A stretch of DNA of 52,127 nucleotides from Planctomycetota bacterium. Lineage in GTDB: Bacteria; Planctomycetota; UBA1135; GCA-002748355. Positions within the stretch are counted from its first letter, which is position 1, and every line of letters begins with the position of its first letter. The position numbers and the translations under genes are program-made. The notes under the pieces are model-generated. The model worked only from the letters and a program-made list of their open reading frames with translations, was not told where the DNA came from and did no database searches. The DNA is taken from contig DROQ01000209.1 of assembly GCA_011321845.1 (NCBI GenBank), forward strand, positions 1 to 52,127, in the 5' to 3' direction. This document shows positions 41,859 through 51,125 of this stretch, in pieces.

Positions 41859-44219
41859 TTGAGTTATCACAGAATTGAGCGAGAGATCGCAGGAAAGCCC
41901 ATGGTCATGGAGACCGGAAAATGGGCCAAGCAAGCCGACGGCGCGGTCGTGGTTACCTATGGTGGAACCACTGTGCTATGCACGGCTCAGAGCGCGGAAC
42001 CCCGGGAAGGGTTGGACTTCTTCCCCCTTACGGTGGACTATCGCGAAAAAACCTATGCCGCGGGCAAGATCCCCGGTGGCTTCTTCAAGAGAGAAGCGCG
42101 TCCCACAACCAAAGAAGTCTTGACCTGCCGGTTGATCGACAGGCCCATTCGTCCCCTGTTCCCGGAGGGCTACAAGAACGAGGTCCAGGTCATGGCGACC
42201 GTCCTCAGCTACGATGGGGAAACCGATCCAGACATTGTGGGAATGATCGCGGCCTTCGCAGCGGTGAACGTGAGTTCCATGCCCTTTGACACCCTCCTCG
42301 GCGCTTGTCGAGTAGGGCTCAAGGATGGGGTTCTTGTGTTGAACCCGACCGTCCAGGAGACCCTTGAGTCGGACCTCAACTTGACGATGGCAGCCTGGAA
42401 AGAGGCTGTGGTCATGGTGGAGGCGGGCGCCCGGGAAGTCCCCGAGGAGGTCATGTTGGAAGCCCTGGAAGCCGGCCAAAACCTCTGCGTCGAAGTTGGC
42501 TCCATGATCCGGGAATTGGTCAAGAAGGCGGGCAAGGAAAAGGTCGAGTTCGTCCCCCCCGAGGGTTACCCCCAACTTGCCAAGGAGCTGGAGAAGAAAT
42601 TCAAGAAGAAGATCGAAAAGGCGGTCTCGGCCAAGGGGAACAAACACGACCGGGCCGAGGCTGTGGGCGCAGTCAAGGAGGAGATGGAGGAATACTTCGC
42701 AGCCAAGCTGGAGAAGCTCGGGGACGAAGCCCCCAAGGCCAAGAAGTTCTTGAGCGGGGCATTCAAGGATCTCCGCTCCCAGGCGGAGAGGGCGGCCATT
42801 CTGGCTGGGACCCGTTCGGATGGCCGAGGATACAAGGATATCCGTCCCATCTCGATCGAGGTGAGTCTCTTCCCGAGAACGCATGGTTCCGCCGTCTTTA
42901 CCCGTGGGGAGACCCAGGCCATGGTCATCCTCACCTTGGGAACTTCCCAGGACGAGCAGATCATCGATGGGCTGAGCGAGGAATACCGGAAACGCTTTAT
43001 GCTCCATTACAACTTCCCGCCCTACTGCGTTGGGGAGGTGCGTCCCATTCGTGGTGTGAGCCGCCGCGAGATCGGCCATGGAGCGTTGGCGGAACGGGCT
43101 CTCGAGGTCATCCTTCCCGAGCCCGAGAAGTTTCCCTACACCATCCGCATTGTCAGCGAAATCCTCGAATCCAACGGTTCCAGCTCCATGGCCTCTGTTT
43201 GCGGGGGAACCCTGGCCCTGATGGACGCGGGGGTCCCGATCAAGCAACCGGTTGCCGGGATCGCCATGGGCCTGATCAAGGAGGGCCGCAAGACGGCCAT
43301 TCTCTCGGATATCCTCGGGAGCGAGGACCATGTCGGGGATATGGATTTCAAGGTGACCGGAACCCAGCGTGGAATCACTGCCCTTCAAATGGATATCAAA
43401 TGCAGCGGCTTGACCCGTGCCCTGATGAAGAAGGCCCTGGACCAGGCCAAAGAGGGCCGAGTCCACATCCTCAAGGAGATGTTGCAGGCGATCCGTAGGC
43501 CGCGGAACACCCTCTCCTCCTTCGCTCCTCGCTTGGAACGGATCAAGGTCAATCCTGACAAGATCGGCCTGATCATCGGTCCGGGCGGCAAGAACATCCG
43601 GGCTCTTCAGGAGGAGACCAAATCCAGGGTGAACGTGGAGGATGATGGAACCGTCCTGGTCTCGGGCACCAACCCGGCAGGGGTCGAAGAGGCCGTCAAG
43701 CGGATCCAGGCCATGACCGCCGAGGTCGAAGTCGGCAAGCTCTACAAGGGCAGGGTCGTGGCGGTCAAGGAGTTCGGCGCCTTCATCGAAGTTCTTCCTG
43801 GACAAGAAGGGTTCTGCCACGTCTCCGAACTTTCGGATGACTTTGTCCGTTCGGTGACCGATGTCGCGAAGGTGGGAGACGTCCTCGAGGTCAAAGTCGA
43901 CTCCATCGACGAGCTGGGACGCATTCGCCTGACCCGGAAAGGACTCGAGTCCTCGGGGAGCAGCGCCATGGGTTACGAGTCGGATGAGGACTTTGGAGAG
44001 GCCGAAGAAGAGGTTGAAGCTTCTGAGCCCTCGAGAGAGACCTCGGACAGAAGGGGAGCCCGATCCTCGGAGAAGCGTGGCAAGCGAAGGGATTCGGGCC
44101 GCTCCCGGGATGGAGGTTCTAACCGGCAACGGGGCGGTTCCTCCCGTGGCGGGAGACGAAGTGGTGGAGGCCAACGCCGTTCTGGGGGAGGTGGCCGCAG
44201 GAGGTCTCAGGATTCCTGA
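41859..44219 (+). CDS. pnp: Polyribonucleotide nucleotidyltransferase (PNPase)
   Basis: Phosphorolytic 3'-5' exoribonuclease of the RNA degradosome. The 786-residue protein has two RNase PH-like halves (VVVTYGGTTVLCTAQSA..., and HGSAVFTRGETQAMVILTLGT...GSSSMASVCGGTLALMDAGVP with SDILGSEDHVGDMDFKVTGT), a KH domain (DKIGLIIGPGGKNIRALQEETK) and an S1 domain (LYKGRVVAVKEFGAFIEVLPGQEGFCHVSEL). The C-terminus carries an extra tail of about 60 residues, rich in Arg, Gly and Ser with RGG repeats. The start codon is TTG, preceded by TAGGAGA at a good distance; no ATG is available nearby. Confidence 0.97.
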   Translation: MSYHRIEREIAGKPMVMETGKWAKQADGAVVVTYGGTTVLCTAQSAEPREGLDFFPLTVDYREKTYAAGKIPGGFFKREARPTTKEVLTCRLIDRPIRPLFPEGYKNEVQVMATVLSYDGETDPDIVGMIAAFAAVNVSSMPFDTLLGACRVGLKDGVLVLNPTVQETLESDLNLTMAAWKEAVVMVEAGAREVPEEVMLEALEAGQNLCVEVGSMIRELVKKAGKEKVEFVPPEGYPQLAKELEKKFKKKIEKAVSAKGNKHDRAEAVGAVKEEMEEYFAAKLEKLGDEAPKAKKFLSGAFKDLRSQAERAAILAGTRSDGRGYKDIRPISIEVSLFPRTHGSAVFTRGETQAMVILTLGTSQDEQIIDGLSEEYRKRFMLHYNFPPYCVGEVRPIRGVSRREIGHGALAERALEVILPEPEKFPYTIRIVSEILESNGSSSMASVCGGTLALMDAGVPIKQPVAGIAMGLIKEGRKTAILSDILGSEDHVGDMDFKVTGTQRGITALQMDIKCSGLTRALMKKALDQAKEGRVHILKEMLQAIRRPRNTLSSFAPRLERIKVNPDKIGLIIGPGGKNIRALQEETKSRVNVEDDGTVLVSGTNPAGVEEAVKRIQAMTAEVEVGKLYKGRVVAVKEFGAFIEVLPGQEGFCHVSELSDDFVRSVTDVAKVGDVLEVKVDSIDELGRIRLTRKGLESSGSSAMGYESDEDFGEAEEEVEASEPSRETSDRRGARSSEKRGKRRDSGRSRDGGSNRQRGGSSRGGRRSGGGQRRSGGGGRRRSQDS

Positions 44220-44407
44220 GGCTCCTGCTCCCCTCCCGGATCGCCGGATAAGCCTCCCCGGAGGACCCTTTTGGGGTTCTGTCCCCGACCGGAAAGGTCC
44301 ATGAAAGGGCCTCTCCGGTCTTCCACCGCTCCAAAAGCGAGGGAATTGGCCTGGGGTGCTTAAATATCAGGAATCCGTTTAAGGGCTAAATCGCTCTAGC
44401 CGATAAG

Positions 44408-44441
44408 GGACACGTTGGGGTTCTCCCAACGTGTCCTTTTT
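44408..44441 (+). terminator. Strong intrinsic terminator after pnp
   Basis: GGACACGTTGGG (44408-44419) pairs perfectly with CCCAACGTGTCC (44425-44436) around a 5-base loop, followed directly by TTTTT. The 188 bp between the pnp stop and this hairpin hold smaller inverted repeats (such as GGCTA...TAGCC at about 44384-44401) but no gene. Confidence 0.93.
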
Positions 44442-44629
44442 CAATTTCTTTGCCCCTTGGCAAACGTCTCTACCCCATGGACATCCAATCCCCTCCCCTT
44501 TTCTCCATTCGAGGAGCTTCTCCGCTCATAGAAACCGAGAAAAAAAACGGGATTTCCTGCCCATTTCCTGAATTTGAGACGTAAGGCCATCGAGCAGCAG
44601 AAGTTATGGCTCTTTTTTTGGAGAACATC

Positions 44630-44854
44630 ATGATCAATGGAACCGTCAAATGGTTCGATAACCGCAAGGGTTTCGGCTTCCTCAATGCAGACACCGTTCC
44701 TGGAGACATTTTCGTCCACTACTCGAAAATCGAGGGTGAAGGATTCCGAACCTTGAACGATGGCGATCCCGTAACATTTGAGCTGGAGGAAGGCGAAAAG
44801 GGCTATTTCGCCTTCAATGTCCGGCCGGTAAACAAGGAAGCGAGCGTCAACTGA
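44630..44854 (+). CDS. Cold-shock domain protein (CspA family)
   Basis: Small single-stranded RNA/DNA-binding protein that melts mRNA structure. The product of 74 residues has both nucleic-acid motifs: KGFGFL (residues 13-18, RNP1) and DIFVHYS (26-32, RNP2), plus TVKWFDN at the start. The ATG at 44630 follows GGAG at good spacing and gives the normal N-terminus; an ATG at 44606 would add 8 residues. The gene has a long gap before it (about 190 bp after the pnp terminator), room for a structured leader as in other cold-shock genes. Confidence 0.96.
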   Translation: MINGTVKWFDNRKGFGFLNADTVPGDIFVHYSKIEGEGFRTLNDGDPVTFELEEGEKGYFAFNVRPVNKEASVN

Positions 44855-44865: not shown

Positions 44866-45012
44866 GTTCCCCAAAAACCCCCATTCTCCTAGATTCCGCT
44901 CCCGCGGGGTCCTCCCCTGAGGGCATGGGTTTCCCCATTCCCCGGAGTTCCAGCCCTTGGGATTCCGGCCCTTGCATCTTTGGGAGAAGGTCCCGGCTGG
45001 GGCCAGGATCCT

Positions 45013-45420
45013 GGTTCCTCGGTTGCGGTTCTTTTTACTGGGCATAGACCCGGTTCCTCCGGTTCCGGTCCTATTATAAGGAGAGACCCGGTTCCTTCGG
45101 TTCCGGTCCTATTTATTGGGAGAGACCCGGTTCCTTCGGTTCCGGTCCTATTTATTGGGAGAGACCCGGTTCCTCCGGTTCCGGTCCTATTATTAGGAGA
45201 GACCCGGTTCCTTCGGTTCCGGTCGGTATTGTTGGGAGAAAAACCGGTTCCTTCGGTTCCGGTCCAGATTTCCTGGAGAAAAACCGGTTCCTTCGGTTCC
45301 GGTCCAGATTTCCTGGAGAAAAACCGGTTCCTTCGGTTCCGGTCCTATTATTGGGAGAGACCCGGTTCCTTCGGTTCGGGTCGGTATAGCTGGGAGAGAA
45401 CCCGATTCCTTGGGAGATAT
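45013..45420. repeat. Array of about ten 38-40 bp tandem repeats
   Basis: The core CCGGTTCCTTCGGTTCCGGTC recurs with starts at 45013, 45052, 45090, 45129, 45168, 45206, 45246, 45286, 45326, 45364 and 45404; the first and last copies are degenerate. Two sub-types exist: one with GAGAGACCC before the core and CCTATTTATTGG after it, the other with GAGAAAAACC before and CCAGATTTCCTG after. ACCGG and CCGGT can pair around each core. The period varies and is not a multiple of three, so the array is not coding. The inter-core sequences are alike, so it is not CRISPR. The 655 bp gap (44855-45509) shows no gene. Confidence 0.92.
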
Positions 45421-45509
45421 GGGTGCATCCTCCTTGATCTTTGGGTTCCCTTGATTGGATCTCCTGATGAAGGGGGGCGAGGTCTGGTTTCTAGGATAGA
45501 ATCCCTCCC

Positions 45510-48500
45510 ATGCGAAAATGCTTGGCCACTGCCTTTCGATGGGGCCTCGGAATCGGGTTCGGGTTTTCAGCCATTCTCGGGGCGCAAAGCCCGAAACGGC
45601 AGGTGCGGGAGACCGTTAGGGTCCCTTTCAGCTCCGTCTCTCCCCGCATCGATGGGCAGAGGGATCGTTGCTGGGAGAAGGCGGTGGTCTGCCGTTTGGA
45701 TCAAAAGGAACAGCTCCTCCCAGGGACTCTCCTCGATTGGAAGGGACCCAGGGACAGTTCCCTCGAGGTGCGGGTTCTTCACGATGGGATGCACCTCTTC
45801 TTTTTCATTCGGATCCGGGATCAGGGTCCCCTGGCACCCAAGTTGGGGGAGAGTTGGGAGAGCGGGGATGTCTTGGAGTTCTTCTTCGATACGGATCTCC
45901 GGGATGGAGGCGAGGGGAATACCCAGTTCAACGAGGATGACCTCCAATTCCTGGTGATGCCTTTTGGGGTGGAACGGGACTGGGGCCTGGTGGATTTCGA
46001 TCTTCAGGACCAGGCCCGCCTGGGGAAGACCCACATTGTCGACCGGGGTTTTTCGGGCTTGCAGCTCGTCCGAAGGAGGACCCCGGAGGGAGGAATCGTG
46101 GAACTCTCTCTCCCCCTGGTGGATTTGCCCGAGTTCAAGGCTGGCACCCGGGAGATCGGTTTCAACATTGCCTATGGGGACCGGGACCCCGGGAGAAAGG
46201 TCTATCAGTACCTTGTTTGGTCGGGGGGGAGGCCTCCCTATCGAAACACGGCCAATCTTGGGAGGCTGCAATTCCTCGGCCCCCCTCCTCTCAGCAGCAA
46301 TGAAGAGTCGAGTCCCTTCATGACCGGGTCCTGGCTGCAATCCCTCCCCTTTCTGCTGCCAGGGGTCCTCCTCTTCGGCATGCTTTGGGTTGCGCGCTCG
46401 GTCACCAAACGTCTCCTCGAGCGAGGACCAAGAACCAAGAGAACCTTTGTCATCTCTGTCATTGGGATGGTCCTGCTTGCCCTCCTTTGGCCCAGCATCG
46501 CGCAATATCTTCGTGCCAACCAGTTCCAGGAAAAGGCTCACCAGGCGATGAAGCTCGCAACCGGATTGCTCCGCCAGTTGGAGGAGGGGGCCTTGTCCCG
46601 CCTTCCGGGCCCTAGCCGCGATCAACCCCTGATGAGCCTCTTCAAGGGGGGCACTCTCAAGCTTCCGGTCCGGTATCGCTATGGCTCCCTGCTCTCCAAA
46701 CAGGCAAGCCAGTTTGGTCTGCGGCCCACCGAAGTGGAGGGTTACTCCTTTTTCCCTTATGACCTCCCCATCGGGAAGAAAAACCTGCCCCTCGAATGGG
46801 AGGAAGCCGCAGGTGGAGCGACCTCCCTGGGGTTCCTCCTGCGCTTGGAACTCCCCGAAGGCCGAACCCCGGGGCAAGGGGGGCCCCTCTTCACTCTGTC
46901 CTGGATGGAGAAGGGGGAAAAGAGGGAGCGAGTCGTCTCTTTCCATGACGTCCAGGTTTTGGGGACAACCGAGGGGAGGATGTTGCGTTTCTTCGCCCCC
47001 TTCGAGGCGGGGGCGGGGGTTCATTCCTGTGTGTTGCGGAAGGAAGGGGAGCCGGGGCGGCTCCAGCTCGAGGGGATCTCCTGTAAAAAGGGGGGGGCAT
47101 GGGAGCCCCTTCTCCTGCATTTCCTTTCTCGCGCGGGAGTTCCCACGGGGATTCGCGGGGGACATCCCGAAAAGGCGGGGAGGATCCTGCTTCCCGGTCA
47201 ATCGATGAAGCTCCAGGTACCAGGGGATTGGGGCCTGGGGGTGACTCGGGTTTGGGCCTTCCTGGATGCTTTCGAGGGTCCCCGCTTCGGGGAGACTGTG
47301 GAAGGAACGATTGTCGGGCGCCTCCGGGTTGGTCTGGAGGGGGGAACATTCTTAAACAGGGATCTGCGCCACCAGGTCCAGGTCTTCGCAGGGAAGCGGA
47401 GCGCCAACCAGGAACTGCCCCGCCTCTTGGAAGGCAAGGGAACAAAGGTCGGCTTTGAGTGGGAAGGTACCGATGAGGAGCCTCATGTTGTTCCCGTCGT
47501 TCCGATCCCTTTGGAAGGGGGACGGAGGATTCTCAGCCTCGAATACCAAAATCTTGGGACCTACCCCCAACGGGTTCGCGATCTGGTTCTTGCCATGGTG
47601 GAGAAGGAAGAGCTGGAAGGGCTTTCTCCCTTTCCCCTTGCGAGGGCGGGAGGAGAAGGAAGATTCCGGCTGACTTCCGCATCCCAGAAGGTGCTTGGCC
47701 TGGGTAGTTGGTTTCTTTTTCGCAATGGCAAGTTGAGTGCTTCCACGCTCGGGAAAGCGGGCACCCTCCAGCGTTTTCCCAAAAAACTCGAGGAGATCGA
47801 GACGGACTGGGTTTGGCGCGACGGCCGCAATTCATTCGGAAAGAAGGCCGAGAGCTTCGAGACCTTCCATCGCTTCAAATCTCCGGACTGGGATGGGGCG
47901 GTGCTGGCCTTTTCCATCGAAGATCCAGGTTGGGGCCGTTTTCTGCAAATGCATCAGCTGATCGCCCTTCTTCTAGGAGGAGTCTCCCTCCCCTGGTTTC
48001 TCGTTCTGCTCTTCGAGGTCTTTGCGATGGGGGGGGGATTGCGCATCCAGTTGAGCACAACGATGGCAGCCGCCACGATCGTCCCCCTTGTGGTTCTTTC
48101 GATGTTCTTGGCCAATCTGCTCACCAAGGGGCAAGAAGAGAATGCCCGGAAGGACCTCCTGGATGGTCTCTCCCAAGTGGAACGCAGAATCGGGGAGAGC
48201 CTGAACGCCCTCGAAACCATGGGCAGGAAGTTGCATCGACTCATGGCTTCCGCCCTGGCACGCGGCGAGTCCGAAGAGTCTCTTCGGAAATCCCTCTCCC
48301 TGGTGCGCCCCACAGATTGGCCTCCCGAGAGCTTCCTTGTCCTGGAATGGCCGGGGGAGGATGGCAAGGTGAAGCGCGTCTTCGACCGGCCTTCTTCTCG
48401 CAAGTTGGGGAGCGTTCCCCTGGGGCCGGGGGCGGGTCTATACCTCGCATGGGCCCGATCCTTTCTGGCGGCCCGCATCGACCCCACACCGCCCTCCGGG

Positions 48501-51125
48501 AGGGCCCGAGGGGCCAAGGCTCCCTCCTCCCCTTCCGAGGGGCTTCGCCTCTCCCTGGGAAGGGTGGTGGATCCCAAGCTCCTCTCTTCCTGGGCGGAGC
48601 GAGGGACGGTGGCTCTTTTCGACCTCAAGGGCTACCCCCTCCTGGCCGGCAGTAACCCCGACGCCCTTGTGGGAGATGAGCGGTTCCTGCTAGGGATGCG
48701 AAGGCCTTCTCTCCAAAAACTTCTGGCCTCGGTTGTCGGACCCCTTCGCGGCAGCCTGTCCCCGGAGATCCAATCGGTCCCCGCTCCCTTCGGGGCCGAG
48801 TTGGGGAGTTTAAAGATCCTCCGGGACCCTAACCAGCAGGCGCAGTTTGTCCTTGGCTTCTTCGAGCCTGCCCGGGGTGCCCGCCTCCCCTTCTTCCTGG
48901 GGAGTTTGGGGGTCGGTCCCTTTTTCACTGCGGTCCTGGGCTTACTCCTTGCCCTTGTCCTGTTCTTCGCATGGATGATGACGGACCGGATCTCCCGGCC
49001 GATCGAAGCCCTGGAAGGGATGGCCAGCCGCCTTGCCATGGGGGATCTCGAGATCGATGTCAGTGTTGAGAAGGGGGTGGGGGAAGTCTCCAAGCTGACC
49101 CGCTCCTTCTCCACCATGGCGAGCGAACTGAAGCGCCGCATGCTCCAGGGGGAGCGGATGAGCCGGACCATTCACCTTCTTTTCCAGGTTGTGGATCCCG
49201 ACGAGGTCGCCGCCCAGGGGGCAAGACTCATGGGGGAGGCCTTGGGCTGCGCTCCAGGCATGGTTCTCGTGAGGGACTGGGCCGGCAAGGATGTCCTGGT
49301 CTTCGGAGAGGAGGGAGGGGAACGAAGGGTGTCCCGGCAAAACCCCTTGGTGCGCCTGGTGTTCGAGGCTGTCGGGGTCTTTTGCTTTCGCCGTGAGGTC
49401 CTGGGGACGGAGGGCGGTTGGCCTCTCTTTGCAGAAGCGCCCCTAGGGCTGGTGCTCCCCCTCAGGAACGGGGAGCGCCCCTGGGGGGCTGTCGTCTTTC
49501 CTTTGCACCAGGGGGAAGCCTGCGATTTGGACCTGCCGCATCTCGAAGGTCTGGGGCAGCAGCTGGTGGCTGCTTTTGATCGGGCCCGTCTTCACCATCT
49601 TGCGGTGGAGGACCCGAGGACTGGCTTCCTGGTCAAGCCCTACTTCAGAAAGAGGCTCGAAGGTGCTCTGGACGAAGCTCTTCGTAACGGGGAAACGCGG
49701 TTCCTGATTCGGGTTGCGCTCGAGGGCTCCGACCATCTTCGCAAGCGTTGGGGGAACAGCCGCTTCGATCTCCTTCTCGCCCAATTCGCGAAGGGGGCGA
49801 GAAAGCTCCTGACGCGGGAGTCTCTTGTTGGGCGAACGGGGCTCTTTCGGTTTGAGTTCTTGTTGGAGAGCAGGGGCGAGGACCTGGTCGAGGCCTTCCG
49901 AAGGGCCGCACGGCTTGCAGCCTTGGATGTGCTGGATGAGCTTTCCTCCAAGGAATTCCTTGCCTATCTCGAGGTTCAAGGGGCCCGCTTTCCCGAAGAC
50001 GGACGGTCCATGGCCTTCTTGTTGGATGCCCTGGGAAGGAGGGACGAGGATCTCCCCTCGGGAAGGAGTCGCCAGCCCATTGTGAGAGGGGGGTACGTCT
50101 TCGCTTCCAAGGCCATGAAGGCCGTACTCGATGATTTGGATCGGATCTCGGGAACGGATTTCTCCCTTCTGGTCCAAGGGGAGACCGGGACAGGTAAGGA
50201 GATCATTGTGGATCTTTGCCACCAGGGGAGCAAACGGAGTGGGGGGCCTCTGGTCAAAGTGAACTGCGCTGCGATCCCTTCCTCTTTGATCGAATCGGAA
50301 CTCTTCGGACATGAGAAAGGGGCCTTTACCGGGGCAACCCAGCGAAAAAAAGGTCTGTTCGAGGCAGCGTCTGGGGGTAGCTTGTTTTTGGATGAGGTGG
50401 GGGAACTTCCCTTAGCGGTTCAGGCCAAACTCCTCCGCGTGCTTCAGAACAGGGAATTCTTCAGAGTGGGGGGAACCCACCCCATCTCGGTGGATGTTCG
50501 GGTGATCGCCGCGACCCATCGGGATCTCACCAGAGATATGAAGGAAGGGAGGTTCCGTGAGGACCTCTATTACCGTCTCCAGGAGTTCTGCTTGAACTTG
50601 CCACCCCTTCGGGAGCGAAAGGAGGAGATCCCCTATCTGATCGATCATTTTGCCGCGGAATACCAAGGAGAGGCCAAGACGCTGAGTCCGGGAGCTTTAG
50701 ATCTGCTTTATCGGTATGATTTTCCCGGGAATATCCGTCAGCTCAAAAACCTTTTGCAGCGAGCCTTCGTCCTCGCGAGGGGGCCCTTTATCGAGCCCGA
50801 GGATTTGGACCTTCCCCCCCTCCAGGGGCCGCGCCTCGAAGAGGAGGAAGAGAAGTCCGAGCCGGCTTTTGTTCTCCCCTCCCTGCCTCCTCGGGACAGG
50901 CCTCAGGGGGGTGTTCGGGGACCTTCGCAGGGGGAGCGTTGGGCCCTTTTGGAGAAGCGGCTCAAGGAGGAAGGTGAGATCAGTCCTCAGGAATACCGCA
51001 CTTGGTTGGGAATCTCACGCCGGACCGCAACGAGGGATCTGGGGACGTGGAAGGAGAAGGGACTTCTTTGGAGCAGGGGGAACAAGAGATCTCTTCGCTA
51101 TGGACTTGGAAGGGAGAAAGGCTGA
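45510..51125 (+). CDS. Giant membrane-bound sigma-54 activator with exported CBM9-like sensor
   Basis: An 1871-residue protein. Order of parts, with rough residue numbers: signal peptide (1-25); CBM9/DOMON-like beta domain (about 43-262, PRIDGQRDRCWEKA ... SGDVLEFFFDTD); TM1 and TM2 (273-297, 310-336); a large external region (337-813); TM3 and TM4 (814-868); a second external region (869-1130); TM5 (1131-1155); HAMP (1155-1207); GAF-like (1217-1365); degenerate GGDEF (1366-1484, where the signature reads LFRFEF); AAA+ sigma-54 domain (1527-1767) with GETGTGKE at 1557-1564, GAFTGA at 1604-1609 and Walker B Asp/Glu at 1628-1629; acidic linker; winged-helix HTH (1811-1868, ISPQEYRTWLGISRRTATRDL). 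The topology parity puts HAMP onward in the cytoplasm. Probably a one-component sensor that switches on sigma-54 promoters. Ligand and targets are unknown. Confidence 0.9.
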   Translation: MRKCLATAFRWGLGIGFGFSAILGAQSPKRQVRETVRVPFSSVSPRIDGQRDRCWEKAVVCRLDQKEQLLPGTLLDWKGPRDSSLEVRVLHDGMHLFFFIRIRDQGPLAPKLGESWESGDVLEFFFDTDLRDGGEGNTQFNEDDLQFLVMPFGVERDWGLVDFDLQDQARLGKTHIVDRGFSGLQLVRRRTPEGGIVELSLPLVDLPEFKAGTREIGFNIAYGDRDPGRKVYQYLVWSGGRPPYRNTANLGRLQFLGPPPLSSNEESSPFMTGSWLQSLPFLLPGVLLFGMLWVARSVTKRLLERGPRTKRTFVISVIGMVLLALLWPSIAQYLRANQFQEKAHQAMKLATGLLRQLEEGALSRLPGPSRDQPLMSLFKGGTLKLPVRYRYGSLLSKQASQFGLRPTEVEGYSFFPYDLPIGKKNLPLEWEEAAGGATSLGFLLRLELPEGRTPGQGGPLFTLSWMEKGEKRERVVSFHDVQVLGTTEGRMLRFFAPFEAGAGVHSCVLRKEGEPGRLQLEGISCKKGGAWEPLLLHFLSRAGVPTGIRGGHPEKAGRILLPGQSMKLQVPGDWGLGVTRVWAFLDAFEGPRFGETVEGTIVGRLRVGLEGGTFLNRDLRHQVQVFAGKRSANQELPRLLEGKGTKVGFEWEGTDEEPHVVPVVPIPLEGGRRILSLEYQNLGTYPQRVRDLVLAMVEKEELEGLSPFPLARAGGEGRFRLTSASQKVLGLGSWFLFRNGKLSASTLGKAGTLQRFPKKLEEIETDWVWRDGRNSFGKKAESFETFHRFKSPDWDGAVLAFSIEDPGWGRFLQMHQLIALLLGGVSLPWFLVLLFEVFAMGGGLRIQLSTTMAAATIVPLVVLSMFLANLLTKGQEENARKDLLDGLSQVERRIGESLNALETMGRKLHRLMASALARGESEESLRKSLSLVRPTDWPPESFLVLEWPGEDGKVKRVFDRPSSRKLGSVPLGPGAGLYLAWARSFLAARIDPTPPSGRARGAKAPSSPSEGLRLSLGRVVDPKLLSSWAERGTVALFDLKGYPLLAGSNPDALVGDERFLLGMRRPSLQKLLASVVGPLRGSLSPEIQSVPAPFGAELGSLKILRDPNQQAQFVLGFFEPARGARLPFFLGSLGVGPFFTAVLGLLLALVLFFAWMMTDRISRPIEALEGMASRLAMGDLEIDVSVEKGVGEVSKLTRSFSTMASELKRRMLQGERMSRTIHLLFQVVDPDEVAAQGARLMGEALGCAPGMVLVRDWAGKDVLVFGEEGGERRVSRQNPLVRLVFEAVGVFCFRREVLGTEGGWPLFAEAPLGLVLPLRNGERPWGAVVFPLHQGEACDLDLPHLEGLGQQLVAAFDRARLHHLAVEDPRTGFLVKPYFRKRLEGALDEALRNGETRFLIRVALEGSDHLRKRWGNSRFDLLLAQFAKGARKLLTRESLVGRTGLFRFEFLLESRGEDLVEAFRRAARLAALDVLDELSSKEFLAYLEVQGARFPEDGRSMAFLLDALGRRDEDLPSGRSRQPIVRGGYVFASKAMKAVLDDLDRISGTDFSLLVQGETGTGKEIIVDLCHQGSKRSGGPLVKVNCAAIPSSLIESELFGHEKGAFTGATQRKKGLFEAASGGSLFLDEVGELPLAVQAKLLRVLQNREFFRVGGTHPISVDVRVIAATHRDLTRDMKEGRFREDLYYRLQEFCLNLPPLRERKEEIPYLIDHFAAEYQGEAKTLSPGALDLLYRYDFPGNIRQLKNLLQRAFVLARGPFIEPEDLDLPPLQGPRLEEEEEKSEPAFVLPSLPPRDRPQGGVRGPSQGERWALLEKRLKEEGEISPQEYRTWLGISRRTATRDLGTWKEKGLLWSRGNKRSLRYGLGREKG

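Follow-up and report, generated by a model that had tools for sequence, protein, structure and literature searches.

A tandem repeat array ahead of a large activator gene in a Planctomycetota genome, probably a species-specific minisatellite

Long runs of near-identical repeats in front of a regulatory gene raise the question of whether they serve to control that gene or merely happen to have accumulated there. One such array lies between a cold-shock gene and the gene for a very large activator in the window analysed here, a stretch of 52,127 nucleotides from a 4.16 Mb Planctomycetota MAG. The original prediction regarded it as a cluster of binding sites, a chain of RNA hairpins or a simple minisatellite. 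Our analysis favours the last of these: the array is probably a species-specific, non-coding minisatellite (a satellite as defined by Subirana and Messeguer 2019), amplified by slippage or unequal exchange, and it does not look like a conserved control element. The chief value of this result is as a correction, in that the most satisfactory explanation for a striking array before a large regulator is that this genome has several species-specific minisatellites, of which this is one.

Anatomy of the array and its neighbourhood

The features on which the argument rests are the following:

41859-44219: PNPase gene (pnp), upstream of csp
44606-44854, + strand: cold-shock domain protein gene csp (CSD, PF00313), on the upstream side of the array; 89% identity in the same-genus relative G001
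44955-44997, + strand: decayed outlying unit CCTTGGGATTCCGGCCCTTGCATCTTTGGGAGAAGGTCCCGG, upstream of the main array, located by local alignment to the unit
45010-45049, + strand: degenerate first copy CCTGGTTCCTCGGTTGCGG..., with 62-75% identity to the other copies
45050-45401, + strand: nine full repeat units of 38-40 bp, with a near-invariant core CCGGTTCCTYCGGTTCCGGTC and three spacer types
45402-45411, + strand: truncated last copy CCGATTCCTT, from the split of the array on its core
45497-45502, + strand: TAGAAT, candidate -10 box of a putative leaderless activator promoter
45510-51125, + strand: activator, 1871 aa, from Pfam and sequence

Tandem Repeats Finder places the array at 45013-45411 with a period of 39, a score of 445 and 10.2 copies, a number to be taken with caution, since it comes from a fragmented MAG (268 contigs) and assembly can collapse arrays that exceed the read length. 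The count of about ten copies of a conserved core between the cold-shock gene and the activator is thereby borne out. Split on its core, CCGGTTCCTYCGGTTCCGG, the array runs from 45010 to 45411 and comprises the nine full units flanked by the degenerate first copy and the truncated last one. Exact cores start at 45050, 45088, 45127, 45166, 45204, 45244, 45284 and 45324, the ninth full unit (45362) carries the core with one mismatch, and the steps from core start to core start are 38, 39, 39, 38, 40, 40, 40, 38 and 40. The array is not a product of chance, since 1.4 occurrences of CGGTTCCGG would be expected in the window and nine are present, eight of them inside the array. Upstream of the main array, the segment at 44955-44997 aligns to the repeat unit with a score of 33, whereas shuffled sequences average 18 (p = 0.004). 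The array thus extends somewhat upstream of the limits first assigned to it. Its 3' end does lie upstream of the activator start, as had been stated, but 98 bp from the ATG at 45510 instead of about 90.

Spacers fall into three types (CTATT.., CAGATTTCC and GGTAT..), one more than originally described, and their order, A-C-B-B-A-C, reveals a 158-bp higher-order duplication. Adjacent units are identical in two cases (45088 and 45127, 45244 and 45284), and the centre of the array is homogeneous, with decayed copies at its edges (45010, 45402 and 44955). Taken together, the homogeneous centre, the decayed edges, the identical adjacent pairs and the 158-bp duplication are what slippage or unequal exchange would be expected to leave behind, in agreement with the earlier suggestion of a simple minisatellite with recent local expansion. 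Presumably, tandem amplification by replication slippage or unequal exchange acted, in the gap between csp and the activator, on a unit of about 39 bp, itself based on two CGGTTCC copies that lie nine bases apart. The centre of the array would then be young and homogenised and its edges decaying, and any effect on the activator, be it on the distance to upstream elements, on DNA flexibility or through copy-number-dependent expression, would be incidental or secondary.

Two other classes of repeat were considered and rejected. A coding repeat is incompatible with steps that mix 38, 39 and 40 bp and with stops in five of the six frames; the single open frame, 44980-45957, keeps no constant register across the units and overlaps with the activator gene. 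A CRISPR array was discarded on account of its recurring spacers (45088 = 45127, 45244 = 45284).

The activator contains, according to Pfam, CBM9-like, HAMP, weak degenerate GGDEF and sigma-54 AAA+ domains, while a signal peptide and an apparent C-terminal helix-turn-helix were judged by eye. HAMP, a degenerate GGDEF-like region and a sigma-54 AAA+ activator are here united in one polypeptide with what appears to be a secreted sensor part (signal peptide, CBM9-like); several families of the order have long orthologues of this protein. No Shine-Dalgarno sequence precedes its ATG, from which the end of TAGAAT (45497-45502) is separated by 7 nt; TAGAAT also stands 12-13 nt before the activator ATG in G001 and in a second relative, G005. 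A sample of the genome shows a weak excess of TANNNT at -14 to -12, and Shine-Dalgarno-like motifs in the host genome have a normal peak at -11/-10. The activator is probably transcribed leaderless, from a candidate promoter located downstream of the array, and the array would hence lie upstream of the activator promoter.

Uniqueness and age of the array

The gene order pnp-csp-activator is kept in G001 (a Planctomycetota MAG of the same genus, JALSSW010000083.1) and in the family members G002, G003, G005 and G006. In G001, where the activator C-terminal region has 63% identity, the gap between csp and the activator, some 465 bp long, has been sequenced in full; no array, no recognisable unit and no homologous seed of the repeat unit is present in it. 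The array is likewise absent from all the family members examined. Hence, judging from this syntenic gap, the array would most simply be younger than the split between the host species and that of G001, the alternative being its loss in G001. The activator and its C-terminal domain would then be older than the array.

A wider search gave a similar picture. Among 60 relatives no sequence similar to the array was detected, and the exact core occurs in none (0/391) of the other genomes sampled across the phylum. A mobile or dispersed origin was rejected on this absence and on the lack of any match to the core in phages, plasmids and viral contigs. The genome scan for the core that had been proposed as a check recovers, at up to three mismatches, the array and a scattered background of matches with 2-3 mismatches (24 in total, versus 73 for a reversed control pattern), with no genome-wide spread beyond that background. 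A REP palindrome or other dispersed family was also discarded, the array being found at a single locus in the genome.

Regulatory and structural alternatives

Lying upstream of both the candidate promoter and the ATG, 98 bp from the latter, the array would be suitably placed for an enhancer composed of protein-binding sites. The protein might be the activator itself, through its C-terminal DNA-binding domain, and the control cooperative or autoregulatory. The host genome encodes sigma-54, the core holds a direct repeat (CGGTTCC-TT-CGGTTCC), and it is conserved above the spacer, with 2 of 21 variable columns versus 12 of 19 (Fisher p = 0.0007, circular scan p = 0.01), p-values that are optimistic because columns are taken as independent and spacer types change in linked blocks. 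Selection on the core could thus be envisaged from the alignment. On the other hand, G001 keeps the C-terminal region of the activator without the array, and the host genome has no core sites elsewhere, its matches being fewer than those of the reversed-pattern control. Helical phasing is also missing. The cores had been thought to face nearly the same side of the DNA, but a step of 38-40 bp spans about 3.7 turns, so that each core is rotated by some 100 degrees from the previous one, and their phases are flat (Rayleigh R = 0.06, p ~0.97 at 10.5 bp per turn, and flat across 10.4-10.6). The search for sigma-54 promoters gave no good candidate; the TGG-N8-TTGC at 45012, in the degenerate first copy, was set aside as uninformative, as one of 12 matches in the window, many of them coding, where 5.7 are expected. 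An enhancer of this kind is therefore unlikely on the evidence of G001, the genome scan and the phasing, and the idea of binding sites for the activator's winged helix is not upheld. Just as doubtful, in our view, is the idea that the array evolved recently as a multi-site DNA element under selection on its core, used by the activator or some other factor to control the gene in this species only, with copy number as a tuning device. Nothing supports a link between the array core and the activator, even if some regulatory role is still conceivable.

Repeats at leaderless promoters of Mycobacterium tuberculosis vary in copy number and have been proposed to alter promoter strength (PMC12817950). 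The geometry is alike in both cases, for those repeats (lpdA/VNTR3690, cysG, dop; PMC12817950) likewise consist of tandem units, tens of bp long, that precede an apparently leaderless gene, and the signs of recent expansion in the array would be consistent with a promoter-proximal VNTR that tunes or phase-varies activator expression. The M. tuberculosis units, however, are 54-58 bp long, contain or adjoin the promoter or sit 12-29 bp from the gene, and are known to vary in copy number, whereas the array stops about 85 bp short of the -10 box and its copy number is known from one genome of the species. Such a role seems quite improbable here, and the array would acquire greater importance only if its copy number altered activator expression, as proposed for the M. 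tuberculosis promoter repeats. Least credible of all, and very improbable in our view, is a series of RNA hairpins, whether in a long activator leader or in the 3' untranslated region of csp. Most units can be folded as CCGG(TCCTA...TAGGA)CCGG and one double-sided change, from TA/TA to AG/CT, is present, but the whole region folds no better than its dinucleotide shuffles (z = +0.63), single units with their flanks held fixed yield z from -1.4 to +0.8, base-pair counts and covariation lie inside the shuffle range, Rfam returns no match to the array, and the activator is seemingly leaderless.

Satellites and other repeats in the host genome

Bacterial satellites have been defined as at least four tandem copies of a unit of 10-200 nt (Subirana and Messeguer 2019, PMC6749651), and the planctomycete Rhodopirellula baltica harbours 29 of them, about 4 per Mb (PMC6749651). 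With 10.2 copies at a period of 39, the array described here has the same make-up; like those satellites (PMC6749651) it is non-coding, unique and species-specific, and the variation of its steps between 38 and 40 bp, as opposed to a strictly constant period, makes no essential difference. We therefore class the array as an ordinary bacterial satellite. Nor does it stand alone, for two further large intergenic arrays, with unrelated units and in unrelated contexts, were found in an 841-kb sample amounting to 20% of the genome, from which the background rate of arrays is taken. One (L112:6434-6874, G000:C52) consists of about 11 copies of a 39-bp unit between rplQ and a convergent dnaE; in the other (L111:8363-8659, G000:C17) a 53-bp unit is repeated 5.6 times, with a NUDIX gene on one side and an unknown gene on the other. 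Neither was found in eight relatives, except for a 33-bp partial match to the L111 array in G003. Hence, large species-specific intergenic arrays appear to be a habit of the host genome, tied to no one kind of gene. The L112 unit contains a palindrome, CCCTCGAGGG, and the L111 array stops right at the start of the unknown gene.

Another repeat of the genome is a GTAG-tagged palindrome, GTAGGAAACGCCTCCAGGCGTTTC. At up to two mismatches it gives about 130 matches in forward and 115 in reverse orientation, against none for the control. Examples are found at L065:9600-9676, L065:10174-10325, L068:11213-11395 and L075:10641-10760, and none within the window. The palindromes often form short tandem runs and display compensating stem variants (AAACGCCT/AGGCGTTT, AAACCCCT/AGGGGTTT and AAACGTCT/AGACGTTT), and they resemble a REP family of the GTAG type, one that is missing from the same-genus relative as well as from 19 others. 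A Y1 transposase (PF01797) was not detected in the host genome, and one is present in the same-genus relative. GTAG-tagged REP palindromes (PMC3733652) resemble the array in being short, extragenic and sometimes tandem, and they make up a large family in the host genome, whereas the array unit has no GTAG tag, is no clean palindrome and occurs at one locus only.

Other structures were observed around pnp. Between pnp and csp, at 44405-44439, lies a strong terminator-like hairpin of 16 pairs followed by a T-rich stretch, and a similar sequence occupies the same position in G001. The C-terminal tail of PNPase (~43900-44219 in the window) is rich in Arg, Gly and Ser, and the DNA encoding this tail in relatives (L027, L028, L037-L043) is made up of long tandem repeats, most of them a multiple of 3 nt.
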